Position numbers and translations under genes: made by a program. A stretch of DNA of 64,000 nucleotides from Desulfamplus magnetovallimortis. Lineage in GTDB: Bacteria > Desulfobacterota > Desulfobacteria > Desulfobacterales > Desulfobacteraceae. Shown here piece by piece: positions 1 to 15,841 of this stretch; positions within the stretch are counted from its first letter, which is position 1; each line of letters starts with the position of its first letter. The notes under the pieces were generated by a model. It saw only the letters and a list, made by a program, of their open reading frames with translations, was not told the DNA's origin and searched no databases. Location of the stretch: assembly GCF_900170035.1 (NCBI RefSeq), contig NZ_LT828540.1, positions 245,170-309,169 on the forward strand, given 5' to 3'.

Positions 1-55
1 TCCTGATTCAGACAGTGTTGACAAGGCTTACAAGATCATAGGTGTCGACTTTGAG
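1..55. repeat. Family C repeat, right end only
   Basis: The first 55 bases match the right end of a 175-190 bp element seen complete at 35144-35318 and 61486-61673. It ends in TGTCGACTTTGAG, the inverted form of the family's left end. The rest lies outside the window. Confidence 0.75.
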
Positions 56-61
56 TTTTAT

Positions 62-140
62 ATGAAAGTCTCGGTAACAGGCTGTTTTTAAAACAACTTT
101 CATCTCTTCGATTGTGGCGGTCATCAGCCATGTACGTTAT
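62..140. repeat. Family B palindromic repeat
   Basis: A GAAAGTC...GACTTTC-type palindrome followed by a GTGGC...GCCATGTACGTTAT tail. The same unit recurs at 14767-15008, 17890-18045, 37232-37321, 39806-39967, 49499-49605 and 60601-60681. Its right edge abuts a truncated reading frame at 141, so it may have removed the 5' end of that gene. Confidence 0.75.
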
Positions 141-202
141 ATGGAGCCGGTTGAAGATGAAATTTTAATAATCCCAAGCGCGGAAAGAATGGAACTTGCT
201 CT

Positions 203-493
203 ATGAGCAAAGTCTCCAGCCTAAATTATGACAAAGTGATAAAAGCGTTACAAAGAGATGGATAGGTAATCGTTCGTCAACGCGGATCGCATATACGGAT
301 ACAAAAGCATATTGATGAAGAGATTCTAAAGATAACTATTCCAGCGCACAAACCAATAAGACGTCATATCAAGATTAAATCCGATGCAAATCCCTACGAT
401 CCATCATGGGCTGATTACTTTGCCAAACTTTCCAAATCTAAAACTGCCGGGTTCTTAGATGAACTTTATCAATGCTTGAGCCCTGTGCGGTGA
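203..493 (+). pseudogene. HicA-type toxin remnant fused to an intron ORF tail
   Basis: The frame from ATG 203 reads like a HicA mRNA interferase: a helix ending in KALQRDG, then VIVRQRGSHIRI with the catalytic His in a GSH motif, then IPAHKPI. A TAG at 263-265 replaces the expected Trp codon. After IPAHKPIRR the frame changes character to HIKIKSDANPYDPSW, which resembles the C-terminus of group II intron reverse transcriptases, and ends at 493. The start overlaps the stop of a 21-codon remnant (141-206) in ATGA fashion, possibly the tail of a partner antitoxin. It appears to be a recombination product of a toxin gene and an intron end. The HicA call rests on motif recognition only. Confidence 0.6.
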
Positions 494-553
494 AAGTCGC
501 ACGCAGGGTTCTTAAGGAGGCTTGGGAGTGGTAAGACTCCCCGGCTATCCGAC
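365..553 (+). mobile_element. 3' end of a group II intron
   Basis: The C-terminal ORF tail (365-493) is followed at 478-511 by a domain V-like hairpin: GAGCC...GTGCGGTGAAAGTCGCAC...GGTTC, with the typical GAAA-type loop. A domain VI-like hairpin follows to about 553, ending CTATCCGAC. Everything upstream of the ORF tail is missing. The sequence after 553 leads straight into an attC site, consistent with an intron inserted in an integron array. Confidence 0.65.
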
Positions 554-580
554 ATTTTTGGGGCTTCACTTTGTTACGCC

Positions 581-674
581 CCATAAACCGCTGAATTCGT
601 CGTTAAGCTGACCGCCGGCGGTTCCGCTCGCAAGCTCGCTCCACCTCCGTCGGCAGCTTAACTCATCGTTATGT
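581..674 (+). other. attC site 1 (integron recombination site)
   Basis: The site ends in GCTTAAC, a five-base spacer and GTTATGT (668-674, core R'). The left arm carries CATAAAC as a degenerate R'' and GTTAAGC as L''. The two arms pair: GTTAAGCTGACCG against the region ending CGGCAGCTTAAC, giving the imperfect palindrome expected of attC. It lies immediately upstream of the first cassette gene. Confidence 0.65.
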
Positions 675-735
675 ATAAAAAATATTGCTAAAATATATGA
701 CTTTGAGCTACTATTAGTTCAAGGAGGACAAAAAA

Positions 736-933
736 ATGGCAACAATAACGGTTGAAATCGATGATTCAAAAGCAGACATTTTAAAAGAGAAAGCCCAAAA
801 ACTTGGTCTACTACCAGACCAGTTCGTTGCTGCATCTATCGAAGATTTAATTTCAATACCTGAACCAGAGTTTAACAAGGCATTAGAAAAAGTTTTACGG
901 AAAAATAAAGAACTTTATAAGCGTTTAGCATGA
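736..933 (+). CDS. Antitoxin-like small protein (partner of Doc)
   Basis: A 65-residue protein with an N-terminal ITVEIDDSKADILKEKA segment (a beta strand then a helix, as in Phd/RHH-type antitoxins) and a charged C-terminal helix. AAGGAGGA sits eight bases before the ATG. The stop codon overlaps the start of the Doc-like toxin gene (ATGA), the usual antitoxin-first layout, so it is inferred to bind and neutralise that toxin and to autorepress. No specific antitoxin family is recognised with certainty. It lies between attC sites 1 and 2, so it forms a two-gene integron cassette with its partner. Confidence 0.7.
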   Translation: MATITVEIDDSKADILKEKAQKLGLLPDQFVAASIEDLISIPEPEFNKALEKVLRKNKELYKRLA

Positions 934-1319
934 TGAGGTATCTTTCTCTAAAAGAAATTTTTACAATTCATAATTCAATAATTTCATCTTCTGGTGGTGC
1001 ATCAGGAATACGTAATTTAGCATCCCTGAAAGCATCACTTGGTCAACCTCACCAAACATTCGATGGCAACGACTTTTATCTTGATCTTATTTCAAAAGCA
1101 AGTATCCTCTGCTACTCAATTGTTATGAACCATCCCTTTGTTGATGGAAATAAAAGAGTTGGCCATGCCGTCATGGAAATTTTTCTAATGCTCAATGATT
1201 TTGAAATTGAAGCATCGGTTGATGAACAAGAGAAAATTATGCTTCGTTTAGCCGAAGGTAGTATACACCGTGAAGAGTTTGAAGTTTGGTTAAGAGCAAA
1301 TATAAAAAAAATCACATAA
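930..1319 (+). CDS. Doc/Fic-family toxin
   Basis: A 129-residue Fic-fold protein of Doc size. The motif HPFVDGNKRVG near residues 69-79 matches the Fic consensus HPFx(D/E)GNxRxG; the Lys in GNKR is the Doc-type form, and Doc proteins phosphorylate EF-Tu. The N-terminal L-x-E-I-x-x-I-H segment is also typical of Doc. The start overlaps the antitoxin stop by four bases, implying translational coupling. The stop lies within the left core of attC site 2, which is normal packing for a cassette gene. Toxin-antitoxin cassettes are known to stabilise large integron arrays. Confidence 0.88.
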   Translation: MMRYLSLKEIFTIHNSIISSSGGASGIRNLASLKASLGQPHQTFDGNDFYLDLISKASILCYSIVMNHPFVDGNKRVGHAVMEIFLMLNDFEIEASVDEQEKIMLRLAEGSIHREEFEVWLRANIKKIT

Positions 1320-1385
1320 CCAGCCAGTTCACCGGATTGCCATTACGCTGCGCTTCATGGTAACCGGTGACCGACAGCGTTATGT
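1314..1385 (+). other. attC site 2
   Basis: A 72-bp site with perfectly matched outer cores: ACATAAC at 1314-1320 and GTTATGT at 1379-1385. The inner arms GTTCACCGG and CCGGTGAC pair as well. This is the clearest attC in the window; it closes the Phd/Doc-like cassette and opens the helicase cassette. Confidence 0.85.
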
Positions 1386-1418
1386 TTCAAAAGACAAAGC
1401 CCATCGAAGGAATAAAAT

Positions 1419-4400
1419 GTGAGTGAAGTTAAAGAAAAAATGGATTCAACAACCAGTAATCGCTTAGATGAACTTCTTGCTTATGTGCATCATGTAGGGC
1501 AGATCAATCAAAAACCTATTTTCAGAATAGAAGAATATAAACAACTGACTATATGGGAGCATGAGTTAAAAGGGAAAATCGGAATCCAGCATAATATAAT
1601 TGATAACGATGGTATTTCCGTATGGCTAAGAATCGAACGATTAAAGAGGTTTGCACCACCTTCGATTCCTGAACATATACAAGATTGGATTGCCGTTGAA
1701 AATGACCCTGAAAGCAAGCCGCAGATTAAAGATAAAATAATCAAAACACTGACAGAACAAGAAGCCAATAAACTTGTTGCCGAAGGAGTTGTAATTGAGT
1801 GCGATGTTACTGATCCGTTAAAAGAAGAAATGTCTGGAACAAAGCTAAAGGATGTAATATTTCGCTTAGAAAATAATCAGCAAATAAAGACAGACATAGA
1901 CAGTTATCTTAATGAGCAGTGGTTTCCTTGGTCTGAGGAAGAAAAGCCACGTAGGGTTACGATTAAAATATATGACTCATTATTTAGTCTACAGCAAACC
2001 ATTGAAGCACAAGGTGACGAGCAGCCGATAGAATTAATTTGGGGTATTGGTATAAGTCGGTGGTTATGCGAAGGACACAAAATTAATCATCCATTACTGG
2101 AAAAGCCGATTGAAATTGAAGTTGATAGAAAAGATGGCACAATACTGATACATCCTCGAAATAATGAGCCGACTATTGCAGTTGGTGCATATTTCGCATT
2201 AAAAAACCCTGGTGTGGATGCCTTGTTGCGTTTTGGGAAAAAACATTTTTCTGAAATGTCAGATAACATCGAATTTTCACCATATATTCACGAAAGTTTT
2301 GAGCCAATATTAAGGCAGGCTTCAACTCATCTAAGTGAAAGCGGCACATACTGGCCTGATATAAACCATGACAAAGAAAACCGCGAACCAAACAAGATAA
2401 GTGACTCTCTTGAGCTAACAGATAGTTGGGTTTTATTTGCAAGGCCAAGAAGTGCCACTGGATTTATCCAAGATATAGAGAGGTTCCAAAAAGAATTAGA
2501 AGAGTCAAAATCCACAGATACTGACATTCCCAATCCGACAAAAAAGCTTGTCACGGAATTATCTGATAAAAAACCGATACAGACGGGTGGTGGGTTTCTA
2601 TCAGATAGCGGTTCGTCTTCTTCATCTTCAGGTGCATCACAAGCGAAAAAACAAAAAACAGAACTGTTTTTCCCAAAAGCCTTTAATGATTCGCAGGTTC
2701 AAATAATAGATAGGCTTGAAGAGAATGACGGTGTAGTGGTTCAGGGGCCGCCCGGTACAGGCAAAACCCACACGATTGCCAATATTATTTGTCATTATCT
2801 GGCAACAGGAAGGAGTGTCCTTGTTACTTCAAAAGGGGAGTCTGCCCTATCGGTACTGCAAGACCAAATACCTGATGAATTAAGAGCCTTAACAATTAGC
2901 CTTCTGGCAAACGAAAGGCAAGGTATGAAACAGTTAGAAGCAGCAGTTGAGCTTTTGGCTGGATTAGTTAGCCAAACCAGTTTGGGGAAGTTGAATCAAG
3001 AAGCAGAGTCCAATGCTTTAAGAGTTAAGCAGCTAAAAAGGGAAATAAATGAAATTGATGAAAAGATTAAAGACTGGGGGTTAAAACAACTAAATCCGGT
3101 AGGACAAAAGCTGACCGGTGAAAAAAACGAAATTACTGCGATGGAGTTAGCACGTCTTGTCATAGATGATTCCGGTGCCCATGAATGGTTCACTGATGAA
3201 CTTGGTTCCTCTGATCGTTTCAGCCCTAAGTTTACTGATTCAGATATAGCGATAATAAGAGCTGCCCGCCGAAAAGTTGGTAAGGATATTTGTTATGTTG
3301 GTAAATCCATTCCACAATTACAGGATTTACCGGATAGTGCAAATATAGCAGCTATACATGATGATTTATCCGCATCTGCTAAAATTGCCATGGAATCAAA
3401 GAGCGGTCATATACCTCCCCTTGCTGTTTCTGTGGAGAAATCCGTTGACCGAGCCAAGCAACTAATTAAGCCATTAAGGGAGCTTGGCAACCTTCTTGAT
3501 ATATTTCAAGAAAATTCCTGGTTGCAACAACTATTTTATTCATGGATTGAAGGTGCATCGACATCAAATGATGAAAATACATTATTCAACGAGTTACTAA
3601 TATATTTGGATGAATTAATAGAGCGAAGGCAGATATTTGTTAAGACCCTTGTTGAAATACCCGATCCTTACCATTGCTTTGAAGGTACACAAGCTGCTTT
3701 AAGTAACTTGGCAAACAATAAAAGAGCTTTTGGTATATTTTCCTTCGGGAGTAAAGAAGCCAAAACTATTATCGAACGGGCAAAAGTTGAGGGAGAAACT
3801 CCGAAGGATGCAGAAACCTGGCAGTTAGTTCTTGATTATGTGACTTATCAAGATGATATTAGAAAATTTATCATTAAATGGAATCATGCCGGACAGGAGC
3901 TTGATTTACCAGAATTTGTATATCAGTACGGCAGCTTGTATAAGGATATTCAGGCCGTTCAAAAGACTATTTCTAATGCAAAACACCTTGCAGGCGAGTG
4001 GCACTCCATTAGTCATGAAATTGGTGAGCTATTCCCACATGGAATAGATCTATCCAAAATTATAGTAAGTAAATTGGAAATAGATAAGGCAATTAAGGCT
4101 ATTGAGTTTAATACCTCTCGCATTAGCCTCGGTGCTCAACGTATCAAGCTACAAGATTTAATGGAAAAACTAAAAAAATCTGATGGAGATATTGCGAATA
4201 GTATAAGTGATTTTGTAAATACCGCTATCGGTAATCCTGAATATTCATCGGACAAAATTATTCAACATTGGCAAGAGTTGGGTTCAGAATTAAACAGAAT
4301 AAATGAATTAATAGTACATTTGAATGACATTGAAAGAATTGCAGAGTCAATATCTGAGTCAGGGGCACCTATTTGGGGAAGTAAACTTAAATCAGAACCG

Positions 4401-6083
4401 TTATTAGAAGAAGACGATGCACTTACACCGGCAGATTGGTATGAAACATGGAGATGGAACCAGCGTAAGCAATATTTACATGAAATTGACGGGCGTGAAC
4501 ATCACAAGAAACTTTCTCAAAAAAGGGCGAGATTAGACAATGATTTGAAACGGACGTTTTCCAAGCTTGTACGGATAAAAACAAACATTGGTTTACATAT
4601 GAGCATGACCGAGCGCGTCCAAGGTGCTTTGATGCGTTTTGTATCTTCTGTCGCTAAGATTGGTAAAGGTACTGGAAAGAGAGCACCGAGGCATCGAAGA
4701 GATGCCTATAGGGCAATGCAGGATTGCTACAGTGGTGTTCCATGTTGGATTATGCCCACCTGGAGAGTGAGTGAAAGTTTGCCGTCTGACTTTGGTTCGT
4801 TTGACTTGGTGATAATTGACGAGGCATCTCAATCCGACATTACAGCATTGCCTGCTATTTTAAGGGCAAAAAAACTATTGATTGTGGGTGATGATAAACA
4901 GGTTAGCCCAACAGCTGCTTTTCTTGCCGAGGAAAAGATATTACAACTAAAACATAATTTTCTTCGAGAGCAGCCATTTGCAGAACTGCTACTGCCTGGA
5001 ATTTCTGTATATGATCTTGCCAATGCTGTTTTTCCTGGTCAGCGGATCATGTTAACTGAGCATTTTCGATGTGTTGAACCAATTATTCGGTTCAGTATGC
5101 AATTCTATAATGAGCCTCTAATACCACTAAGGATACCAAAATCATCTGAGAAACTAACGCCGCCCCTGGTTGATGTATATGTCAAAGGCGGTCAGCGTGA
5201 TGATAGAAGTAAGATTAACGAAGTAGAAGCAGAGGGAATCATATCTGAGATAAAAGCAGTTGTGGCAAACCCTAAGTATAAAGGACGCAGCATCGGCGTT
5301 ATTTCTCTAATAGGAGCACAACAAGCAAAGTACATACAGGACCAGTTACTTATTGAGTTAGGAGAAGACATTTTTCAAGAATATAAAATAGCCTGTGGCG
5401 ATGCTGCCACTTTCCAAGGTAAGGAGCGTGATATTGTATTTTTATCTATGGTTGTCGGCTCCCGTCAAGGTGCAGTAATGAGTAAAAGAGATGCTGAACA
5501 AAGAATGAATGTGGCCTTGTCCAGAGCAAGAGATCGAATGTATCTTTATAGAAGCATTCAGGAATCTGACCTTAGTAATGAATCAGATTTACGCTTAAAA
5601 ATTCTTAGGCACTTTTCTTCCCCTATGCCACAACTCAAGCAAGTAGATAATCCCATTGACTTATGTGATTCAGATTTTGAAAGAGATGTTTATAAACGCC
5701 TTACTGCAAAAGGGTATAACGTTGTACCGCAAGTAAAGGTAGGAGCATTTTCAATTGACTTGGTTGTTGAGGGAGAAAATGATCAAAGGTTAGCAATTGA
5801 ATTAGATGGCGACAAATACCATCCTCCTGAGCAGTGGATGAATGATTGGAAACGGCAACGTACTATGGAAAGAGTTGGCTGGCAATTTTGGAGATGTTGG
5901 GGTTCAAGCTACACAATAGACCCTGAAGGATGTATAGATGATTTAATCAATGTGCTTAACAATATGCAAATAGTTCCATGTGAAATAAGCAGCGGAGCAA
6001 ATATTTATACTGAACAACGAATATATGAAAAACAACTTGAAATTGAAAATGATGATCTTGATTTTGAGTTGGTACCAAATTGA
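1419..6083 (+). CDS. Giant SF1 helicase with C-terminal nuclease domain
   Basis: A 1554-residue protein starting at a GTG behind GAAGGAA. Walker A GPPGTGKT lies at residues 443-450. A long helical insertion (about 500-1080) precedes motif II (IIDEAS, about 1130), motif III (GDDKQVSP) and motif VI (MNVALSRARDR), a COG1112-type SF1 helicase layout. The last 130 residues carry IDLVVEG...LAIELDGDKYH, a Vsr/DUF559-like PD-(D/E)XK nuclease pattern. The N-terminal 400 residues have no recognised domain. Similar helicase-nuclease fusions act in anti-phage defence, so a defence role is inferred. It is the sole gene between attC sites 2 and 3, making a cassette of about 4.8 kb, far larger than usual. 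Confidence 0.85.
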   Translation: MSEVKEKMDSTTSNRLDELLAYVHHVGQINQKPIFRIEEYKQLTIWEHELKGKIGIQHNIIDNDGISVWLRIERLKRFAPPSIPEHIQDWIAVENDPESKPQIKDKIIKTLTEQEANKLVAEGVVIECDVTDPLKEEMSGTKLKDVIFRLENNQQIKTDIDSYLNEQWFPWSEEEKPRRVTIKIYDSLFSLQQTIEAQGDEQPIELIWGIGISRWLCEGHKINHPLLEKPIEIEVDRKDGTILIHPRNNEPTIAVGAYFALKNPGVDALLRFGKKHFSEMSDNIEFSPYIHESFEPILRQASTHLSESGTYWPDINHDKENREPNKISDSLELTDSWVLFARPRSATGFIQDIERFQKELEESKSTDTDIPNPTKKLVTELSDKKPIQTGGGFLSDSGSSSSSSGASQAKKQKTELFFPKAFNDSQVQIIDRLEENDGVVVQGPPGTGKTHTIANIICHYLATGRSVLVTSKGESALSVLQDQIPDELRALTISLLANERQGMKQLEAAVELLAGLVSQTSLGKLNQEAESNALRVKQLKREINEIDEKIKDWGLKQLNPVGQKLTGEKNEITAMELARLVIDDSGAHEWFTDELGSSDRFSPKFTDSDIAIIRAARRKVGKDICYVGKSIPQLQDLPDSANIAAIHDDLSASAKIAMESKSGHIPPLAVSVEKSVDRAKQLIKPLRELGNLLDIFQENSWLQQLFYSWIEGASTSNDENTLFNELLIYLDELIERRQIFVKTLVEIPDPYHCFEGTQAALSNLANNKRAFGIFSFGSKEAKTIIERAKVEGETPKDAETWQLVLDYVTYQDDIRKFIIKWNHAGQELDLPEFVYQYGSLYKDIQAVQKTISNAKHLAGEWHSISHEIGELFPHGIDLSKIIVSKLEIDKAIKAIEFNTSRISLGAQRIKLQDLMEKLKKSDGDIANSISDFVNTAIGNPEYSSDKIIQHWQELGSELNRINELIVHLNDIERIAESISESGAPIWGSKLKSEPLLEEDDALTPADWYETWRWNQRKQYLHEIDGREHHKKLSQKRARLDNDLKRTFSKLVRIKTNIGLHMSMTERVQGALMRFVSSVAKIGKGTGKRAPRHRRDAYRAMQDCYSGVPCWIMPTWRVSESLPSDFGSFDLVIIDEASQSDITALPAILRAKKLLIVGDDKQVSPTAAFLAEEKILQLKHNFLREQPFAELLLPGISVYDLANAVFPGQRIMLTEHFRCVEPIIRFSMQFYNEPLIPLRIPKSSEKLTPPLVDVYVKGGQRDDRSKINEVEAEGIISEIKAVVANPKYKGRSIGVISLIGAQQAKYIQDQLLIELGEDIFQEYKIACGDAATFQGKERDIVFLSMVVGSRQGAVMSKRDAEQRMNVALSRARDRMYLYRSIQESDLSNESDLRLKILRHFSSPMPQLKQVDNPIDLCDSDFERDVYKRLTAKGYNVVPQVKVGAFSIDLVVEGENDQRLAIELDGDKYHPPEQWMNDWKRQRTMERVGWQFWRCWGSSYTIDPEGCIDDLINVLNNMQIVPCEISSGANIYTEQRIYEKQLEIENDDLDFELVPN

Positions 6084-6089
6084 ACGAAA

Positions 6090-6188
6090 ACATAACAATA
6101 GCATACACGCAGGCTTCCAAAAGCGGCGCGGCTTTCGCTGCGCTACAGCCACACCACTTTTGGAAGCCGGTGATGCTAGGCGTTATGT
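6090..6188 (+). other. attC site 3
   Basis: A 99-bp site with cores ACATAAC (6090-6096) and GTTATGT (6182-6188). The arms GGCTTCCAAAAG and CTTTTGGAAGCC are perfect complements, with a GC-rich central hairpin. It begins seven bases after the helicase stop. Confidence 0.85.
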
Positions 6189-6213
6189 TTCTGATAAGAA
6201 AAAGGGGTGGACT

Positions 6214-6407
6214 ATGAGTTGGAGAACCGGAACAGAAATGTTTTATGAAATACTTCCGATTATAAGGAATCATATACAGGACGATGAAACAAGAAATGAC
6301 TTCTTAACAGATTAAATAATTTTTTTTTATAATATGACATAGACCCATGTGACATTCGAGAAATAGATGATGAGATTACAGCTATAGCCGAAGAAATCGA
6401 TCCATAA
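6214..6407 (+). pseudogene. Degenerate small cassette ORF
   Basis: An ORF from ATG 6214 begins MSWRTGTEMFYEILP and stops at 6315. The sequence from 6333 to 6407 in another frame reads YDIDPCDIREIDDEIT and so on, which looks like the natural continuation of one acidic protein of about 60 residues. The break falls around a nine-T run (6320-6328); more than one indel is needed to restore the frame. Function is unknown. It is the first gene after attC site 3. Confidence 0.5.
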
Positions 6408-6489
6408 ATATTAAAAAAAAAATCAATGCAAATTTGTTAAAGAAAATCGGCTAATTACAACTAAAACCAATTAAAGGAAGTCATTTAGA

Positions 6490-6930
6490 ATGAAAATATA
6501 CTTTGATGTTTGTTGCCTCAATCGTCCATATGATGATCAAACACAAGATAGGATTCATTTGGAAACTGAGGCTATAATGACTATACTAAAGCATATAGAA
6601 TTAAAAGAATGGTATTGGATTTCCAGCGGTGTTGTCAACTATGAAATCAGTAAAATATCTGATGAAGAGAAAAAATGCCGTTTGCAGTCTTTAGTTCGCT
6701 GGGCAACTGAGTTTGTCTCCGTTGAACAAGACACTTATAATAAGGCGAAAGAAATACAACAACTTGAAATCAAAGCATATGATGCATTACATATTGCTTG
6801 TGCTGAGCAAGGAGATGCTGATATATTTTTATCAACAGATGACAAACTAATAAAAGCATCAAAAAGAAACAAAGAGGCCATAAACATAGAAGTAGAAAAC
6901 CCTCTAACGTGGTTACAGAAAGTGATATGA
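6490..6930 (+). CDS. PIN-domain toxin
   Basis: A 146-residue PIN-fold protein, inferred to be a ribonuclease of the VapC class. It opens with MKIYFDVCCLNRPYDD, where Asp6 is the first metal-binding acid; NYEIS supplies the conserved Glu, and AYDALHIA and LSTDDKL supply the C-terminal Asp cluster. AAAGGAAG precedes the ATG. Its stop overlaps the start of a small downstream gene, so the antitoxin would be second, the reverse of the common order. It lies in the cassette after attC site 3. Confidence 0.8.
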   Translation: MKIYFDVCCLNRPYDDQTQDRIHLETEAIMTILKHIELKEWYWISSGVVNYEISKISDEEKKCRLQSLVRWATEFVSVEQDTYNKAKEIQQLEIKAYDALHIACAEQGDADIFLSTDDKLIKASKRNKEAINIEVENPLTWLQKVI

Positions 6931-7148
6931 TTATGAATATACAAATTATGACACAACAACAGATAAGAATAGCAGGAATTGAAATATTAAGTCAGCATAT
7001 GGGTATTACCGGGATGATTCGTTTTCTTCAACAGACGGAAATAGGATACGGAGATTATACAAAAGAAAGAGAAAGGTTGCTTGGAGATCCAACATTGGAA
7101 GAGTTGGTGGCTGATATTCAAGCAAGTGAATACAATAAAAAAACATAA
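6927..7148 (+). CDS. Putative antitoxin partner of the PIN protein
   Basis: A 73-residue protein whose ATG (6927) overlaps the PIN stop in ATGA fashion; a longer GTG start at 6909 is possible but lies inside the toxin gene. It reads MIMNIQIMTQQQIRIAGIE and ends with an acidic helix containing GDPTLEELVADIQA. No family is recognised. Coupling to a PIN toxin is the only evidence for an antitoxin role. The stop lies in the left core of the next attC-like site. Confidence 0.6.
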   Translation: MIMNIQIMTQQQIRIAGIEILSQHMGITGMIRFLQQTEIGYGDYTKERERLLGDPTLEELVADIQASEYNKKT

Positions 7149-7267
7149 CAAGACGTTCCACCAGGTGCGACCTTAAGTCACTGATATTATTGTTAATTAA
7201 TGCAAATTAACCTGCCGTATCACCGGCAGTTTCTTACCTTGGCATGCATTACTGGTAACGGTTTTGT
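7143..7267 (+). other. attC-like site 4, probably interrupted
   Basis: ACATAAC (7143-7149) is a perfect left core right at the end of the PIN cassette. A fair right core, GTTTTGT, lies at 7261-7267, preceded by CTGGTAACG, which can pair with CGTTCCACCAG at 7154-7164. Between them, GGTGCGACCTTAA at 7164-7176 is identical to the start of the group II intron fragment at 7808. The site may therefore contain a short intron-end insertion. Confidence 0.45.
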
Positions 7268-7312
7268 GTGAAGCCCAGGGGACAATGGAGTCCTTAGCCG
7301 ATCGAAGCCCAG

Positions 7313-7549
7313 TTGGGAGATAATCCTCTGGTTAGAGATGAAGAACTTTGTCTTCACAAAACAGGTAGAGAATGTCTCAGATGTATGAAAGTCTGCCCAG
7401 TTCGTGCTGTAACCTTGAAAGGAATAGAACGCCATCGTTGTGATATGCGTATTCAGGTCAACCGTAAAAGATTCGCATCCAGACCTAATATGGCAGATGA
7501 TATTGAGGTCTGCGCGAAGTGTATTGCCGGTATGCCGTGCAGTCTTTAG
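7313..7549 (+). pseudogene. C-terminal fragment of an Fe-S protein
   Basis: The 78-codon frame contains CLHKTGRECLRCMKVCPVRA and, later, CAKCIAGMPCSL, a ferredoxin-like cysteine pattern resembling the end of the QueG-like (epoxyqueuosine reductase-related) double-cluster family. A stop codon lies 15 bases upstream of the TTG and no N-terminal catalytic domain precedes it, so this is an orphan tail. It lies in the disordered part of the integron region. Confidence 0.5.
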
Positions 7550-7649
7550 TCACCTTTGTCAAATGAAACTAAAAAATGATTCGATATGTATTATAAGTCA
7601 TATGATAAAAAATTCAGTGGACGCAAAAAGCCACGCCGATGATTTTAGC

Positions 7650-7792
7650 GTTCGCCCTCAATAACATTACAATTTTTTTACATTCTGGAATGATGAAATG
7701 ATTACTTGCTTTTTTGATAACTATGATCCAACAAAAGACTATACACATGCACAAATTGTCAATGGCCAAATAAAAATGACAGAAGGGCGAAC
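7650..7792 (+). other. Mini-cassette bounded by attC half-sites
   Basis: GTTCGCC (7650-7656) and GGCGAAC (7786-7792) are exact complements and look like the right core of one attC and the left core of the next, 130 bases apart. The segment between has no convincing gene. The left attC lacks a matching left core, and the right one is cut at 7808 by an intron start. Confidence 0.4.
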
Positions 7793-7808
7793 AAGGCGCT
7801 GGAGAGGG

Positions 7809-8035
7809 GTGCGACCTTAAATCAGTGGAACAGGGTAAGCCCAATTGTCTCCATTTAAGTATGGAAAGCAAGCCGTAAGGTGACCCGATAGATGAGTGGA
7901 TAAAGGAGGTCGGAGAAAGCAAATGCCATTCTGTCATGGAGTGGATAGAGGGATATCCCTTATCAGGAAAGTGAGCAGACTTCCGGCAAGTGTTGAATAT
8001 CGGGAAAGAGTTGGAATGATCTTAATCATGAGGAA
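7809..8035 (+). mobile_element. 5' part of a group II intron
   Basis: The segment begins GTGCGACC, matching the GUGYG start of group II introns. It continues with domain I-like elements such as AAATCAGTGGAACAGGG and AAAGCAAGCCGTAAGG. No reverse transcriptase follows; the next gene (8054) is unrelated. The fragment interrupts an attC left half (GGCGAAC, 7786-7792). The right limit is approximate. Confidence 0.65.
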
Positions 8036-8053
8036 GGGAGTATATATAGTATT

Positions 8054-8878
8054 ATGAAACTTACTGAACAGGAAGCTAGGAAATTCTTTAATTTGATGTG
8101 GGCATTACAGTACTTTGTAAATAAGAAGCTCGCGATTATTCCTGATATAAAAAGTGTTGATGAGTATGCCGAATGCAATACTGAAGAAAAAATAGAGGTA
8201 CGTAAAGCTCTTTATAAAGATAAAAAATACTTTGATATGTTTGTTAAGGAGAATCCTCAAAACTTTTCTGAAGAAGATCTGTCTGTTATACGCGAATGGA
8301 AGAATTTTATTGACGGGGATTTTCATATCGAACGGTTTTTGAAGAAATATACTGTTTTTATCAGAGGAGATCAGGTTTACGGAGTTATGGGACTTTATCA
8401 AGGGGTGGATGAGTTGATTCATTCTTCCCATCTGCCCCTTTATGTAAAAACTGTTCTTTTGCCATATAAAGGCAAGATTGTATATGACGGACTTTTTCAA
8501 AGCTATAATATCTATTTTGGCGGAGGGATAAAGAGGGAGTTAAAGGAATCTTATATGATTGCCAAACAGAATAACAGGATAATTGAAACCCTTGAATACT
8601 CCCCAAAAACAACTAAGAAAAAGGAAGCTGCCAAACCCGTCAAAAACTGGAAACCAGAACTGGACAGACTCGCCAAAATTGCAAAAAACCTGAGAGGCAG
8701 CTCTGACTCTCCTGCTATTTACAGTCCGGCATTCGGTTTGATAAAGGCAAGTATAGAATTTGCCCGACTTGCGGAATCTGATTTAGATGATCAAGATAGT
8801 CTTTATAAGTCTTTGAAAAAAGTAGAGAGTGCATTAAAGAAGTCATATAAAGTACTTGATCGTCAGGAGTCCTGGTAA
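8054..8878 (+). CDS. Conserved protein of unknown function
   Basis: A 274-residue soluble protein with no signal peptide or membrane span. GAGGAAGGGAG lies about 12 bases before the ATG. Residues 1-190 look like a single globular domain, with motifs such as EQEARKFFNLMWALQYFVN, LPLYVKTVLLPYKGKIVYDG and FGGGIKRELKESY; then comes a Lys/Pro linker (about 190-205) and a helical C-terminus. It is not a group II intron protein despite the intron fragment upstream: there is no YADD or maturase motif. It may be the last cassette of the array. No function is proposed. Confidence 0.75.
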   Translation: MKLTEQEARKFFNLMWALQYFVNKKLAIIPDIKSVDEYAECNTEEKIEVRKALYKDKKYFDMFVKENPQNFSEEDLSVIREWKNFIDGDFHIERFLKKYTVFIRGDQVYGVMGLYQGVDELIHSSHLPLYVKTVLLPYKGKIVYDGLFQSYNIYFGGGIKRELKESYMIAKQNNRIIETLEYSPKTTKKKEAAKPVKNWKPELDRLAKIAKNLRGSSDSPAIYSPAFGLIKASIEFARLAESDLDDQDSLYKSLKKVESALKKSYKVLDRQESW

Positions 8879-8898
8879 TTTGTTAAAGACAAAAGGCG

Positions 8899-8937
8899 GT
8901 GGATTCAATGGTTGTTTGAATCCACACTACGTTATGG
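8899..8937 (+). other. Hairpin with attC-like right end
   Basis: A perfect 10-bp inverted repeat (GTGGATTCAA at 8899-8908, TTGAATCCAC at 8916-8925) is followed after five bases by GTTATGG, resembling an attC right core. No clear left core is present. It could instead be a transcription terminator without a T-run. Confidence 0.35.
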
Positions 8938-9010
8938 GTTGACCATCCATCACCATGGTGCTTTAAAAATCCGGCCGGTGAATGGTCATTTCCATATTTT
9001 GCCTGAGGTT

Positions 9011-10735
9011 TTAATTTTTTGCTTTTACAAGCACCTGTGCATTTTCAGGTGACATCAGATTTACATTTCCATTTTCAAATATTAAAACATGGTGGCAGTA
9101 TTGAAAAATTTCAGGGCGGTGAGAGATAATAATCACTATGAGATTGTTTTTCATTTTCAGAATATCCGATAGAATTGCACGCTCGGTTTTCATATCCAAC
9201 TCACTTGTGGCCTCATCTAAAATGAGCACAGCAAGGGGCCTTATAAGAGCCCTGGCTATGGCAACGCGTTTTTTTTCACCACCTGATAAAAAACATCCGC
9301 TTTCTCCTACCACTGTCTGATTTCCAGACGGAAATCGTTTTATCATCTCTTCACACCCGGAACAGCGTATGGCATGTTCAATCTCTTCAGGTGTTGCATT
9401 TGCGTTGCCATGCAAAATATTATTTAGAATTGTATCATCAAATAGTTGTGCATCCTGGGAGACGATTCCGATTTTTGAAAACCATTCTTCCATATTGAGT
9501 TCATTAAGGTCAATCCCCTGAATTAGGATTTTTCCTGCTGAACAGGGATAGAAACCTGTCAGAAGGTTTAAAAGTGTGGTCTTTCCGGAGCCGCTTTTTC
9601 CGGCAATGCCAACAATTTCTCCAGTTTTAAATGCAATATTTAAATCTTTAAAAATATTGTGTCTGCCATCAAAGGTAAAATTTACCCCTTCAAATTTAAT
9701 AGTTTCAATTTTTTCAGGAAGTTCAACAGGGTTTTTATTTACATCAATGCAGAAAGAGTGAAGCCGCAAAATTCGCTTTATTGCAGCAAATGACTGCTGC
9801 ATCATTATCATGGAATTTGACATTGATTTTAGAGGCTTCATAAGACCAACACCTGCCGCAAGGCAGCCTGCAATATCTTCAGGGGTTGTACTGCCGTTTT
9901 GTAACTGATTATACGCAAGTATCACCATCACACAGATGGAAGTTGTGGACAAAAGATCTGATATGGGGGCAGCAATTGCGTTAAGCAAGGTAGCCCGCAT
10001 TCGGGCATCAATCATTGATTTGCCCTTTTTGTTAAGCTCGTTAACCTGATTTCTTAACATTGTCAGGTATTTAATCTGACGGATATTTATAAGAGCCTCA
10101 ACAATGAACCCCTGAAGCCTTGCCTGGCTCTCCATGTAGTGAAATTCAGCTTTTCTTGATAATCTGCTGATTCTGGATACAAAAATACTTAAAAATGGAA
10201 AAAGAATGCATACTGTGGAGGCAATTAATGGGTTGAAGTAAAACATGGTTACTGTCAAGAATAACAATGTGGCTGGTATTTGCCACAGAGCTAAAAAAAG
10301 TTCTATTACTCCTGCGCTGGCAAACTTTACATCATTGAGTAAACTGTTGGAAAGGTGGCCGGTTTTACTGGCATTATGAAAGGAGATGGGACTTTGTATA
10401 ACCTTTTCAAAAAGATTGACTCGCATGTCATGGGCAATAGAGATATGAATTCTGGTCATGATATATCGGTTTACAACAGTTAAAATTCCTTTGATCAGCA
10501 TGAGCAATAATGCGATAAACGCCCAGAATAATACGGTTTCTAAGGTCATTGAGATTGACAGATCCTTTACAAGTTTATTGAGCATCCATGCCAGTACTCC
10601 TCCCATAGCAGCCAGGATAAGAGAGGTTATAAAAGCTAATATCAAATTAATCCTGTAGGCTCTTGCATATGACCATAAAAATTTCAGTGAATCACGGTCA
10701 AAAAACAGTTTTGTTCTCTTCTGATAAGCTCCCAT
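9011..10735 (-). CDS. ABC exporter of the RiPP operon (permease-ATPase)
   Basis: A 574-residue half-transporter with N-terminal membrane spans (about 20-310) and a C-terminal ATPase: Walker A GKSGSGKTT near 378-386, signature LSGGEKKRVAIARAL, and Walker B LAVLILDEATSELD. There is no N-terminal C39 peptidase domain, which fits a system where a separate B2 protein removes the leader. It is the last gene of the minus-strand RiPP operon, separated from the preceding gene by a family A repeat. The likely cargo is the mature Tyr-rich peptide, which may also give self-immunity, as lasso D proteins do. Confidence 0.9.
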   Translation of the reverse strand: MGAYQKRTKLFFDRDSLKFLWSYARAYRINLILAFITSLILAAMGGVLAWMLNKLVKDLSISMTLETVLFWAFIALLLMLIKGILTVVNRYIMTRIHISIAHDMRVNLFEKVIQSPISFHNASKTGHLSNSLLNDVKFASAGVIELFLALWQIPATLLFLTVTMFYFNPLIASTVCILFPFLSIFVSRISRLSRKAEFHYMESQARLQGFIVEALINIRQIKYLTMLRNQVNELNKKGKSMIDARMRATLLNAIAAPISDLLSTTSICVMVILAYNQLQNGSTTPEDIAGCLAAGVGLMKPLKSMSNSMIMMQQSFAAIKRILRLHSFCIDVNKNPVELPEKIETIKFEGVNFTFDGRHNIFKDLNIAFKTGEIVGIAGKSGSGKTTLLNLLTGFYPCSAGKILIQGIDLNELNMEEWFSKIGIVSQDAQLFDDTILNNILHGNANATPEEIEHAIRCSGCEEMIKRFPSGNQTVVGESGCFLSGGEKKRVAIARALIRPLAVLILDEATSELDMKTERAILSDILKMKNNLIVIIISHRPEIFQYCHHVLIFENGNVNLMSPENAQVLVKAKN

Positions 10736-10761
10736 TAAAATATCTTTCTTTTTTTATTTCT

Positions 10762-10885
10762 TTACCGTGGAAATGGATACAAATTTCTATATTTGGGGGT
10801 GACTGCATCGCAGTCATGCCCGTTTACCGTGAAAATGAATATCATTTTTATATTTGGGGGTGATTGATACATAATCAATCATGGC
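10762..10885. repeat. Family A repeats, two units
   Basis: Two head-to-tail units of ACCGTGRAAATG...TTTGGGGGTG plus hairpin. Hairpin 1 is GACTGC-atc-GCAGTC (10801-10815); hairpin 2 is TGATTGA-N7-TCAATCA (10861-10881). The second unit enters the 3' end of the neighbouring minus-strand gene and supplies its stop codon. Confidence 0.8.
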
Positions 10886-11489
10886 TATTTAGCATGATAA
10901 TAAAAGTATCTATCTGGGTAAATGATTTCAGAATAATTACAGTTTGATCTTCATCACAAATAACATCAATTGCACTTTTTAATTGGGGAAGCCAGTAATA
11001 GTGGAGATGCCAGGGCATTATCAGCATTTTTTTTATCCTTGAAAGCTCTCTTTTTATCTCCGGCAGCTCTTTTTTAGAAGTTGAACGACTTGAATGGTTG
11101 CCATGCAGTTTTTTGTTTTGACTGAAAAGTTTTCTTTGATTGATTAAAAGTTTTCTTTGCTTGAAAAGATCAGATAGATATCGTTTTATTACAATGTAAT
11201 AATGGAAAAAAAGAGGGTGCGAGATAATAATAATTGTATCGGCAAATTTAAGACGCAAAATAATAGTTGACCATGCCCCTACACCTTCAATTATCCACGA
11301 AGGTTTTAAGAGAATTTCATCCTGAATTGCCAACTGTTCTTTTTCAGAAAAGCCTTTATTTCCATCTGAAGACTTAAAAAGATCGTCCAGGTGGTACGCT
11401 TTAATATTTAGGAGATGAGATAATTTTTTTGATAAGGTAGATTTACCTCCGCCAGCATTGCCGAGCACTGCAATTTTTTTCATACTCAT
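10875..11489 (-). CDS. P-loop nucleoside/adenylate kinase-like protein
   Basis: A small P-loop protein beginning MSMKKIAVLGNAGGGKST, the FlaR/adenylate-kinase-like Walker A form G-x4-GK(S/T). The start chosen (11489) has an AAGG ribosome site; a longer frame back to 11576 lacks one. A DDLF motif after the P-loop and DTIIIIS in mid-protein fit a phosphotransferase fold. It sits between the HPr-kinase-like gene and the exporter, so it may act on the RiPP or supply phosphate, but this is inference. The last codons and stop come from a family A repeat, so the original C-terminus may have been replaced. Confidence 0.75.
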   Translation of the reverse strand: MSMKKIAVLGNAGGGKSTLSKKLSHLLNIKAYHLDDLFKSSDGNKGFSEKEQLAIQDEILLKPSWIIEGVGAWSTIILRLKFADTIIIISHPLFFHYYIVIKRYLSDLFKQRKLLINQRKLFSQNKKLHGNHSSRSTSKKELPEIKRELSRIKKMLIMPWHLHYYWLPQLKSAIDVICDEDQTVIILKSFTQIDTFIIMLNSHD

Positions 11490-11628
11490 TTTAAATATTA
11501 ACCTTTTGCTTCTTGGCTTTAACGCCCTTTGGGTGGACTTTTCCCTAATCTCTTGATTTTGCAGGCGATAAAACAAAAATTCCTATACTATCAACTTATT
11601 TAATAGTGCCATAAACATAGTTTTTCAG

Positions 11629-12642
11629 TCAGGCATTGATTGTTTTCAGTATCTGGCTTTTTTTGATCATCCATGAGCCAAGGCTTGCAGGATCATCTCC
11701 TGTGAATAATTTATAAGAGTTTGTAATGTCGGCAATTGAGATCAAGCGGTACATTGCATCTGCATCGGTTTTCTGATCACAGCAGAATCCGTGGGATTTA
11801 ATAAGTTTCTCAAGAATTTTATTGCTCTTTAACGGTTTCAGCAAAGGGCCTTTTTTTGAAATCTCCGGAAAAAAGATGTAATTAATTTCGGTTTTATTCT
11901 GCCAGCAGGATTCGCCATAAACAGCTTCTGGATCAACTGTCTTTTTCAACTGATTTTTTCTGCTTAAAGCTTCCAGGGGCATCTCTTTTAATTCATCAAA
12001 AAAAGCATACGTATCCTCTGTTATATTGAGCCTTTCAGGTACCCCATGTGCAATTACGCTGTTCTCTTTTAACTCAATAAGAGTTAAATCATCTCCTAAA
12101 AGCCTTGCTCCATGACGAACCAATGATAATGCTGTTGTTGTTTTACCATGACCGCTCTCTCCAATAATTAGGGCACCTGTCCCATCCGGATAACACACAG
12201 CAGCACTGTGAAGCAATGTATATCCGTAACTGTTAAGAATTTCTCTGAAAAGGATAGTTATAAGTGGTGTGTATATGCCGCCATGGGGCTCCCGGGAAGA
12301 GATGGTGATGAAATCAATAGAGTTGTCGTTACGATTTAATAGTGCGCAAAAAAGAGTCTGATTCTCTTTTACTACGGCTGCCAACTGATGAGTTTTGTAA
12401 AATAATCTTGGCTGAATGGAAAAATCGCAAGAAATTATCTCCGTCTGAAGCCACTCAGGAAGTATTGATATTTCTTGTGAAAACAGGCATTTAATCTTCA
12501 CAAAAATGTTTTCGGAATTCTCCTCTAAGGAATTTGTTTTTGTAAGATTAAGTGCTCTTTGAATAATGGAAAAAGATAACAGATTTTCTTCAGAAGAGAG
12601 TGCAATCTGCATTTTTGGAAAATAGCAATGGCATGAGTTCAT
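11629..12642 (-). CDS. HPr kinase-like protein of the RiPP operon
   Basis: A 337-residue protein whose C-terminal half matches HPr kinase/phosphorylase: LLHSAAVCY, then Walker A GESGHGKTTT, then LLGDDLTLI with the catalytic Asp pair. The N-terminal 130 residues are unassigned. HprK-like proteins occur in many lasso-peptide clusters, and in paeninodin-type systems a member phosphorylates the peptide, so a peptide-kinase role is the leading inference. It follows the precursor gene after two family D palindromes (12658-12976). It is not the PTS kinase: no HPr gene is nearby. Confidence 0.82.
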   Translation of the reverse strand: MNSCHCYFPKMQIALSSEENLLSFSIIQRALNLTKTNSLEENSENIFVKIKCLFSQEISILPEWLQTEIISCDFSIQPRLFYKTHQLAAVVKENQTLFCALLNRNDNSIDFITISSREPHGGIYTPLITILFREILNSYGYTLLHSAAVCYPDGTGALIIGESGHGKTTTALSLVRHGARLLGDDLTLIELKENSVIAHGVPERLNITEDTYAFFDELKEMPLEALSRKNQLKKTVDPEAVYGESCWQNKTEINYIFFPEISKKGPLLKPLKSNKILEKLIKSHGFCCDQKTDADAMYRLISIADITNSYKLFTGDDPASLGSWMIKKSQILKTINA

Positions 12643-13035: not shown

Positions 13036-13197
13036 TTACCAAATGTATGTGTAGGTATAATAGTAGTAATAATAGGTTGTACTGACATGATTCAAAGGAG
13101 ATTTGCTTTCACATTTTGGTGGCTCATACATCTTTTTTTCTTTTAAAACATTCTCTTTTTTAACATTTTTTTCATCTAATAACTCTTTTTGCTTCAT
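13036..13197 (-). CDS. Candidate RiPP precursor peptide, Tyr-rich
   Basis: A 53-codon gene, read directly from the minus strand, with a strong GGAGGAG three bases before the ATG (13201-13207). The first 28 residues are highly charged (Lys/Glu) and end with MYEPPK, matching the Y-x-x-P part of lasso leaders recognised by B1 proteins. Keeping lasso spacing (YxxPxLxxxGxxxxxT), Leu is Cys29, Gly is Ser33 and Thr is Ser39/Thr40. The predicted core is then about TYYYYYYTYTYIW. It has no Gly1 and no Asp/Glu at ring positions 7-9, so a lasso ring cannot form. It lies 33 bases downstream of B1. Confidence 0.75.
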   Translation of the reverse strand: MKQKELLDEKNVKKENVLKEKKMYEPPKCESKSPLNHVSTTYYYYYYTYTYIW

Positions 13198-13229
13198 AGT
13201 CTCCTCCAGTGGATTAAAAGGATTAAATG

Positions 13230-13502
13230 TTACTTCAAAAGCCCCCTTTGGGCAATATCATGAACAAAATTTTGAACATCTTTTAAAGCGTGATCAAAAT
13301 CAACCTCAAAGGATTCGGTGATAGAAGTTGCAATATCACTTGTATTCTGGTTATCCACAAGTGCCAGCCAGATAAGCCGTCCTACCTCATTAAACATATG
13401 GTAGTCGCCGTTCTTAGAATTGAGGACAACCAGTTCACCGTTGAGATCTCTCCATGTAAGGTCATTATTTATGCAAAGTTTTTTTCCCAACTTTTCCCTC
13501 AT
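13230..13502 (-). CDS. PqqD/lasso B1-type RiPP recognition element
   Basis: A 90-residue stand-alone RRE. It has the PqqD pattern: three short strands (LTWRDLNGELVVLNSKNG), then YHMFNEVGRLIWLAL, then helices ending QNFVHDIAQRGLL. In lasso systems this protein binds the YxxP leader and presents it to the B2 protease. Its ATG overlaps the B2 stop by four bases, so the two are translationally coupled. The candidate precursor, which carries YEPP, begins 33 bases after its stop. Confidence 0.88.
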   Translation of the reverse strand: MREKLGKKLCINNDLTWRDLNGELVVLNSKNGDYHMFNEVGRLIWLALVDNQNTSDIATSITESFEVDFDHALKDVQNFVHDIAQRGLLK

Positions 13503-13960
13503 TTTTCAATTTTTGGATTTATTCCGTCAGTCCAATACCGGATACCGTTGTAACCAGCCCCCAAATCCACAGGAAACATGATAAATGGATCTCTTTTCTC
13601 TTTAAAAGGTTCATCATTTAAAGTAAGCCAGCAATGACCTCTTCTTTTACGGGTTTGCTGGTGCGTAAAAAGACCGATATTCATTACTGCGGGAATGCCC
13701 TCTTTTCGGAGCAGATTACCCATGATATAAGATCTGAAAAAACATTTTCTGCCTGTATGTAAAGTGAAGAATTTTGTGAAAAAATCAGCACATTTGAGAA
13801 TGCTTCCAATTTCTTTGTCGGTTAATATCTTATGCGATTTGATTTCAGGAAAAAGTACAGAGCTCATCTGGTTTGAAATTTTGATAAACCACGCCTGGAC
13901 AAGATATAAAAAACCAAATGCAAAAATTTTAATTCGCCAGCATATTGATCTTACATTCAT
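13499..13960 (-). CDS. Lasso B2-type leader peptidase (transglutaminase-like)
   Basis: A 153-residue transglutaminase-fold cysteine protease. The active Cys is Cys73 in KCFFRSYIMGNLLRKEG, followed by a VMNIGL strand and GHCWLTLND with His109, as in McjB/B2 proteins. In lasso biosynthesis it cleaves the leader two residues after the conserved Thr region. An N-terminal hydrophobic stretch (residues 6-28) may be a membrane-associated helix. The lipoprotein gene 10 bases upstream may share its promoter. Confidence 0.88.
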   Translation of the reverse strand: MNVRSICWRIKIFAFGFLYLVQAWFIKISNQMSSVLFPEIKSHKILTDKEIGSILKCADFFTKFFTLHTGRKCFFRSYIMGNLLRKEGIPAVMNIGLFTHQQTRKRRGHCWLTLNDEPFKEKRDPFIMFPVDLGAGYNGIRYWTDGINPKIEK

Positions 13961-14766: not shown

Positions 14767-15008
14767 TATAACGTATGTGGCTAATGTCCGCCACAATCGA
14801 AGAGTTGAAAGTCGTTTTAAAAACAGCCACTTACTGAGACTTTCATAAAAATGTATGTGGCTAATGTCCGCCACAATCGAAGAGTTGAAAGTCTTTATAA
14901 AAACAGCCATTTGCGGGGACTTTCTTATAACCCCCCAAGTTTGCTGACGCATCACAACGAAACATGAAAGTGTTTGTATATCAGCATGTTATGGAGACTT
15001 TCTAATAA
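14767..15008. repeat. Family B repeats, three units
   Basis: Three related palindromes fill the gap between the lipoprotein and the response regulator. Two share GTATGTGGCTAATGTCCGCC; the third contains CAAGTTTGCTGACGCATC and ends GAGACTTTC. The rest of the gap (14640-14766) holds nothing recognised. Confidence 0.75.
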
Positions 15009-15014
15009 AAGTAT

Positions 15015-15650
15015 TCAATTATATTCAGGATAATGAAGTTTAAGGCACTCAGGGCATAAACCATGACTTATGTCAGCTTCACTGTTCAAATAAATATATT
15101 CATCAACACCAATCCATTCACCATTGGGATTTCTTATTTTTTTACAAAATGAACACAAAGGTAGTATGCCCCGCAGTGTTTTCACCTCTTCAAGGCTTTT
15201 TTTGAGCTTTTCATTGATTGTTTTCAGCTCCTCTGCCTGGATTTCAAGCATTTTTTTCTGGTTCTGGAGATCTAAATGTATTTTGACACGTGCCAGGACA
15301 AGTTCAGGCAATATGGGTTTACGAATAAAGTCAACAGCACCCATTGCAAGTCCTTTTTTCTCAACATCCTGTTCTGTGAGAGCTGTCAGAAAAATTACCG
15401 GAACGTGTGATATTTCAGGCGTATTTTTTATTTGCGAGATAACTTCGTAGCCATCCATTTCAGGCATCATTATGTCCAGAAGAACAAGAGCCGGTGGTTC
15501 CTTAAAAATCTGTTTTAGTCCTTCAATACCACTTATTGCAACACGGACATCATAAGAATTCTCAAGGATACAGCCGATCATTGTAAGATTTGAGGGTGTA
15601 TCATCAATTATCAGTATTGTTTGTTGCTTGTCGATCATAATATTTTTCAT
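15015..15650 (-). CDS. Response regulator with zinc-ribbon-like tail
   Basis: A 211-residue protein: a receiver domain (residues 10-125, phospho-acceptor Asp59 in LLDIMMPEMDG, Lys in RKPI), a coiled coil (about 130-165) and a C-terminal CSFCKKIRN...GLCPEC pair of C-x2-C motifs, suggesting a zinc ribbon. The tail type recurs in signalling proteins of environmental bacteria; its target is unknown and there is no DNA-binding or GGDEF domain. No cognate kinase adjoins it. It is flanked by repeats on both sides, so it is probably monocistronic. Confidence 0.85.
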   Translation of the reverse strand: MKNIMIDKQQTILIIDDTPSNLTMIGCILENSYDVRVAISGIEGLKQIFKEPPALVLLDIMMPEMDGYEVISQIKNTPEISHVPVIFLTALTEQDVEKKGLAMGAVDFIRKPILPELVLARVKIHLDLQNQKKMLEIQAEELKTINEKLKKSLEEVKTLRGILPLCSFCKKIRNPNGEWIGVDEYIYLNSEADISHGLCPECLKLHYPEYN

Positions 15651-15657
15651 TGATTTT

Positions 15658-15841
15658 TTTACCGTGAAAATGGATACAAATTTTCATATTCGGAGGTGGC
15701 TGAGTCACAGCCATGTCCGTTTACCGTGAAAATGGATACAAATTTTATTTTCGGGGGTGGCTGAGTCACAACCATGTCCGTTTACCGTGAAAATGACTAT
15801 TATTTTTATACTTGGGGGTAATTAATACACAAGCATGAGTG
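15658..15841. repeat. Family A repeats, three units
   Basis: Three head-to-tail units of about 62 bp, each starting TTACCGTGAAAATG and ending in a hairpin. The first has TGGCTG/CAGCCA, the second TGGCTG/CAACCA, and the third is degenerate. Confidence 0.8.

Follow-up and report, generated by a model that had tools for sequence, protein, structure and literature searches.

A putative family of linear RiPP precursors with an oligo-tyrosine core, encoded beside lasso-like leader-processing genes

The locus described here lies in a stretch of 64,000 nt, referred to below as the window, and raises the question of whether a very small open reading frame with a run of tyrosine codons is a real gene and what kind of product could be made from it. 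A sequence-only reading had described the frame as a homopolymeric tyrosine core peptide with a strong ribosome site, and the tyrosine run and the ribosome site were both confirmed. Gene A, at 13036-13197 on the minus strand, translates as MKQKELLDEKNVKKENVLKEKKMYEPPKCESKSPLNHVSTTYYYYYYTYTYIW, in which six consecutive Tyr are followed by T-Y-T-Y-I-W, and the sequence 5' of the gene (...CACTGGAGGAGACT-ATG) is a strong Shine-Dalgarno site, with GGAGGA 4 nt from the ATG. The ORF is a real gene, and very probably it encodes a RiPP precursor with the following features.

13036-13197, minus strand: precursor gene A (53 aa), single copy in the window's genome
13039-13077, minus strand: predicted core TYYYYYYTYTYIW, residues 41-53, by position count from YxxP
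13057-13074, minus strand: six Tyr codons, TAT TAT TAC TAC TAT TAT
13078-13197, minus strand: predicted leader, residues 1-40, with YxxP at 24-27, P34-L35 and Ser39 at the lasso penultimate position (alignment; cleavage site predicted)
13202-13207, minus strand: Shine-Dalgarno sequence GGAGGA, ahead of the ATG

The precursor gene and its homologues

Of the 609 window ORFs that are 30 aa or longer, gene A is the only one with four or more Tyr in a row; the long ORFs of the window have a Tyr frequency of 3.1% and a longest Tyr run of 2. Elsewhere in the 6.68 Mb genome, a run of six Tyr codons is found at just one further place, where it is a pure TAC repeat, and the mixed TAT and TAC codons of gene A indicate that its run is no simple slippage repeat. 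The gene A product matched no Pfam or NCBIfam model, and a promoter and terminator scan around the gene gave nothing above shuffled sequences. Repeats of other kinds were also noted in the window. A dispersed repeat starting TTTACCGTGAAAATG is found near gene ends (10746-10877, 15643-15774, 15704-15835 and 60533), with six copies in the window where none is expected by chance, and a tandem pair of 80-nt units that are 89% alike (AACGTATGTGGCTAATGTCCGCC...) occupies 14770-14849 and 14850-14929.

When the window peptide alone was searched against 39 relatives, only noise was returned. Homologues were obtained by searching for the kinase, collecting short ORFs beside the kinases and then searching with a profile of the precursors so found. 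Short ORFs beside kinases gave the precursors of G135/L064 (ending ...KKPYETPTFHRHEPLESVSTTYYYYTYV) and G049 (MKKEYVAPMFFKHEPLESVSTTYYYYKYYY), and L038 carries a near-copy of the L064 precursor. The precursor of G303 ends ...KKPYLTPVFTKHDPLESVSTVTYYYYYY, that of G489 is MKKSYVAPQFFKHNPLESVSSTYYYYYYY and that of G538 ends ...VSATYYYYYYY. The profile search added G770 (...VSATYYYYTYYYY), G840 (...VSFTYYYYYYY) and G799, together with a second subgroup consisting of G073 (...EPLEESTAYVYYYYIW) and G351 (...EPLEESTAYVYYYYNW). A further profile match in G238 (E 0.004) was judged to be noise after inspection. Homologues with a similar tail, the lack of which was to refute the sequence-only reading, do exist: the poly-Tyr tail is present in 12 homologous loci, that of the window's own genome and 11 others, from two orders of the phylum, and each precursor is a small ORF of 29-53 aa adjoining PqqD(B1)/B2 genes. 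Four features define the family here, namely a YxxP......PL leader, four or more consecutive Tyr, a core length of 8-13 aa and adjacent B1/B2 genes, and all of them were found at the 12 loci.

Alignment of the homologues revealed both conservation and variation in the Tyr run, since the tail is retained throughout while the number of consecutive Tyr is 4, 6 or 7. The precursor genes of three close homologues, those of G489, G538 and G799, show 14 to 19 differences over 90 nt in pairwise comparison, and 14/15, 14/14 and 17/19 of these are synonymous, an excess with P about 1e-9 to 1e-10 under a neutral silent fraction of 0.20. Tyr codons have been swapped between TAT and TAC with all seven Tyr retained. 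Such near-wholly synonymous divergence indicates that the Tyr run is maintained at the protein level and, together with the homologues, upholds the earlier view of a core peptide with a genuine poly-Tyr tail.

Inspected poly-Tyr precursors were present in 6 of 374 genomes of the window's order and in 5 of 258 of the order of G489; in an even sample of the phylum (395 genomes) they were seen only in the window's genome, G489 and G538. A VSTTYYYY codon pattern run over contigs of 84,980 species matched 43 times; L038 and L064 were the only precursors among these matches, the others lying in different reading frames or in unrelated proteins. The pattern misses the VSST, VSAT, VSFT and VSTVT forms, so the family may also occur in other phyla. 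A kinase protein scan of the same multi-species contig collection found nothing.

The gene A leader follows the pattern YxxP...PL..[S/T] of lasso peptides and of linear polyphosphorylated peptides (LPP), and across the 12 precursors the leader conserves Y..P......PL. The position +15 from the YxxP Tyr is Ser in 10 of the 12 and Thr in two (G073 and G351), and position +16 is variable. Lasso leaders have the motif Tyr at -17 and a penultimate Thr at -2 (PMC10368454); the +15 Ser/Thr takes the place of this Thr, and the variable +16 resembles the variable lasso -1 residue. The sequence-only reading had singled out Cys29 as odd. It does occupy the usual Leu position of YxxPxL leaders, but it is peculiar to the window member, as the alignment has Phe, Met or Leu there in the relatives.

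The predicted cores (TYYYYYYTYTYIW in the window, and TYYYYTYV, TYYYYKYYY, VTYYYYYY, TYYYYYYY, TYYYYTYYYY and YVYYYY(I/N)W) each hold 5-8 Tyr among 8-13 residues. Core position 3 by the lasso count is Tyr in 12/12, Thr adjoins the Tyr run in 10/12, and none of the 12 contains Ser, Asp or Glu. In G073 and G351, the predicted core has neither Ser nor Thr.

Precursors of the same leader type with other cores were seen beside related kinases in G111 (L030 6128-6319, ...SAYQDNSSDLEF) and G267 (L033 382-528, ...ACSLSAVSYNSDTNTYYH), suggesting that the leader machinery serves further products too. In G244 (L035 6401-6583), a small ORF near an HprK-like kinase ends ...EPKLTKQGDATKITGGFFGTFVP, without Asp or Glu, and is perhaps another cyclase-less product.

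Adjacent enzymes and the wider locus

In the window, B2, B1, the precursor, an HprK-like kinase, a small P-loop NTPase and an MsbA-like exporter follow one another in this order on one strand.

13499-13960, minus strand: B2, transglutaminase-fold leader peptidase (PF13471, 1.5e-7)
13230-13502, minus strand: B1, PqqD-type RiPP recognition element, RRE (PF05402, 1.4e-14)
11629-12642, minus strand: K, HprK-like peptide kinase (PF07475, 2.1e-8)
10875-11576, minus strand: small P-loop NTPase lying between K and D, not found in the relatives
9011-10735, minus strand: D, MsbA-like ABC exporter (domain searches and gene-content table)
1-9000, no strand assigned: part of the approximately 10 kb separating the exporter from N, M and R, with Fic, helicase-nuclease (1419-6083) and PIN (6490-6930) genes

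The B1 and B2 genes overlap by 4 nt. B1 resembles lasso RREs of known structure, and its family profile matched TbiB1 (8.4e-15) as well as TfuB1, PDB 9x90 and 9x8z. B2 had no sequence match in the PDB, and its Cys73, His109 and Glu121 are invariant in the family. His145, Lys167, Asp184 and Asp185 of the kinase are invariant among 13 distinct family kinases, and His-Lys-Asp-Asp is the motif of lasso-tailoring kinases (PMC9266682). The kinase was seen in all poly-Tyr loci except that of G073, whose contig ends first. An AlphaFold model of the kinase (three sequences) had a mean pLDDT of 38.5 and was discarded. No macrolactam cyclase was found in the window cluster, so the earlier observation of a peptide-type HprK-like kinase beside the precursor with no lasso cyclase holds. 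Between the precursor and kinase genes of L086 (about 6960) and L087 (about 8280), we noted a G+C-rich hairpin with a run of T behind it, which by eye resembles a terminator and suggests stronger expression of the precursor than of the downstream genes.

The gene set common to the best-preserved relatives consists of B2, B1, A, K, D, N (NTP_transf_5), M (a B12-binding radical-SAM enzyme) and R (a SPASM-like radical-SAM enzyme). A radical-SAM-SPASM gene (S) and a Kdo/WaaP-type kinase occur in the loci of some relatives and not of all. Several of the contigs are incomplete, and a gene not seen on them may nonetheless be present in the genome. In the window's genome, N, M and R lie together on the same strand at C1:239464-244161, the NTP transferase gene about 1 kb left of the window, which starts at C1:245170. 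The M orthologue (C1:241614-242930) has 46% identity. No S orthologue was found in this genome, where the best S match is R. The radical-SAM CxxxCxxC motifs are intact; in M of the window's genome (L114 12709-14952) CxxxCxxC is kept and the second, CSxxCxGC-type motif of the relatives is missing.

The approximately 10 kb between N and D, which includes L114 16268-18489, carries a phage-integrase fragment, Fic, a helicase-nuclease of the MTES_1575 type and a PIN gene. A further gene there is HicB-like by eye. This DNA can be described as integrase/toxin-antitoxin/helicase, and the operon appears to have been split by its insertion; in the relatives, N, M and R are contiguous with the remaining genes. 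Of 10 genomes with a VS-type poly-Tyr precursor, 9 have M, and the one in which it was not seen is 81% complete. Where the L038 contig ends after the Kdo-type kinase, M is carried on another contig of the same genome (47%). G073, G351 and G111 gave only generic M matches (23-28%), and thus M goes with the VS-type poly-Tyr group. In G073 and G351 (L105 3761-4468 and L106 2077-2538), a formyltransferase-like gene after B1 replaces the radical-SAM genes; the L106 frame is short (153 aa versus 235).

Proposed product and its alternatives

Our best reading is that the locus would make a linear, exported oligo-tyrosine RiPP that is radical-SAM-modified and phosphorylated, and gene A probably encodes the precursor for an undescribed RiPP family, linear and cyclase-less, with an oligo-tyrosine core, made by the following mechanism. 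B1, the RRE, would bind the YxxP leader and hand the peptide to the modifying enzymes. The B12-dependent radical-SAM enzyme and the SPASM-like enzyme, with a second SPASM-type enzyme in some relatives, would modify the core, with Tyr as their most likely target because the core holds little else. The HprK-like kinase would phosphorylate a core hydroxyl, that of the Thr before the run or that of Tyr, and the NTP_transf_5 protein may decorate the phosphorylated hydroxyl afterwards. B2 would cut the leader off behind Thr40, the residue next to Ser39, and the product would leave the cell through the MsbA-like ABC exporter. The cleavage site, the order of the steps, the substrates of K, N, M and R and the export are predictions from sequence. 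It is conceivable, and we put it forward only tentatively, that the B12-dependent and SPASM-type radical-SAM enzymes methylate or cross-link the oligo-Tyr, that the HprK-like kinase is Tyr-specific, and that the exported product is an aromatic, possibly redox-active compound of anaerobes, which would make the family a RiPP class whose core is almost homopolymeric.

That the gene A product is a kinase substrate, as the sequence-only reading had proposed, is plausible by analogy with the HprK-like kinases of such clusters, which phosphorylate their precursor. The redox, metal-binding or photo-active products that it also suggested are no more than candidates, with no evidence for or against them here. 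The kinase target in the Bsf lasso peptides (PMC10368454) and in LPP (PMC13381572) is core Ser3, and neither BsfK (PMC10368454) nor LppK (PMC13381572) phosphorylated the Ser3-to-Tyr mutant. Either the specificity has changed here, or the near-invariant Thr before the run would be the acceptor in place of Tyr. In G351, the predicted core offers Tyr hydroxyls only and the contig encodes an HprK-like fusion protein, which favours Tyr as the probable acceptor there.

In support of a radical-SAM-modified, phosphorylated peptide we count the joint occurrence of B1, B2, K, D, N, M and R in relatives (gene-content table) and the fact that N, M and R adjoin the window in its own genome; the absence of M from the G073/G351 subgroup and the lack of S in the window's genome count against it. 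With M and R approximately 10 kb away here and M absent in G073/G351, M and R may not act on the gene A peptide. The Tyr run could then be a scaffold or anchor, with Thr phosphorylation and NTP_transf_5 decoration as the essential steps, LPP-like, and the radical-SAM enzymes serving another product. LPP shares B1, HprK, the NTP transferase and the MsbA-like exporter without a cyclase (PMC13381572), known kinases prefer Ser/Thr, Thr stands next to the run in most of the precursors, and G073, G351 and G111 are without M. We nevertheless consider this alternative unlikely, since in G049, G303, G489, G770 and G840 the genes M and R form one unbroken group with K, D and N, nearly all VS-type genomes carry M, and the G073/G351 cores offer no Ser or Thr to phosphorylate.

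The remaining alternatives carry still less weight. The biosynthesis of PQQ and of mycofactocin starts from a precursor that contains Tyr and follows the logic of PqqD plus radical-SAM-SPASM. A peptide serving as the source of a small molecule or cofactor from excised tyrosines would fit with the PqqD and radical-SAM-SPASM genes, the C-terminal Tyr tail and the weak matches of R and S to PqqE- and mycofactocin-type models, but these matches are far below cut-off, no core-trimming peptidase was identified, and the exporter, the leader peptidase and the kinase are of the kinds that go with peptide products, all of which makes it quite improbable. A lasso peptide with its cyclase elsewhere in the genome is more improbable again: B1, B2, the kinase and the NTP transferase are lasso-type and the genome has asparagine-synthase homologues, but the three full or near-full ones reach 79-289 bits against a lasso-cyclase cut-off of 525 and score better on other amidotransferase models, and without Asp/Glu the cores have no macrolactam acceptor. 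Finally, gene A is short and has no domain match, as would a chance ORF or an untranslated repeat, a reading to which virtually no probability can be given in view of the 12 loci, the near-only silent divergence of close homologues, the strong ribosome site and the fixed B1/B2 neighbourhood.

In contrast to the usual variety of RiPP cores, a conserved core of almost pure tyrosine is very unusual. In this family, cyclase-less lasso-like machinery (B1, B2, HprK-like kinase and NTP transferase) would be combined with radical-SAM enzymes of the B12-dependent and SPASM types, and short substrates such as T-Y7 make both HprK-type action on tyrosine and radical-SAM action on the Tyr run directly testable. 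Precursors of this length without a Pfam or NCBIfam match are likely to be missed by automatic annotation.

Comparison with known systems

Among the open-access papers searched, none was found to describe a poly-tyrosine RiPP, and four precursors tested against Pfam and NCBIfam had no match. The SynChlorMet system (NCBIfam) likewise brings together HprK-like (ScmC), PqqD-like (ScmD) and two radical-SAM-SPASM (ScmE/F) proteins. Membership was rejected because every score lies far below the curated cut-off, with 31 of 100 bits for ScmD, 16.5 of 125 for ScmC, 39.8 of 400 for ScmF and 38.1 of 400 for ScmE.

With the phosphorylated lasso peptides (paeninodin, pseudomycoidin and Bsf; PMC9266682, PMC10368454) the locus shares B1/B2 leader handling, YxxP at -17/-14, the H-K-D-D kinase, the NTP transferase and the exporter. 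Their penultimate Thr corresponds to Ser here, but is Thr in G073/G351. The RRE (B1), B2, the YxxP leader and the penultimate residue of lasso systems were thus all found, with Ser replacing Thr in 10/12. In contrast to lasso systems, the oligo-Tyr system has neither a cyclase nor core Asp/Glu, and has an oligo-Tyr core and radical-SAM genes. A lasso peptide was rejected, there being no cyclase in the cluster and no Asp/Glu acceptor at approximately core position 7-9; for the same reasons, no lasso-type macrolactam would be formed.

Among known systems, LPP (Popov et al. 2026, PMC13381572) comes closest, although it is described as restricted to Bacillota. The LPP gene set of a discrete RRE, HprK-like kinase, NTP transferase and MsbA-like exporter with no cyclase was found here as well. 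The LPP leader YxxPxVLxHQxIxFETxxS resembles the oligo-Tyr leader YxxPxFxxHxPLESVS and, counting from the motif Tyr, LPP S3 aligns with the first Tyr. The LPP leader, however, is cut by an SpI-type signal peptidase; a scan of the genes surrounding the window precursor found none of this type, B2 (PF13471) occurring there instead, and LPP membership was rejected. LPP cores are also variable, with 45 aa in the studied case, and the named conserved core genes of LPP include no radical-SAM enzymes. The oligo-Tyr family is of the phosphorylated lasso/LPP kind of RiPP, yet a member of neither.
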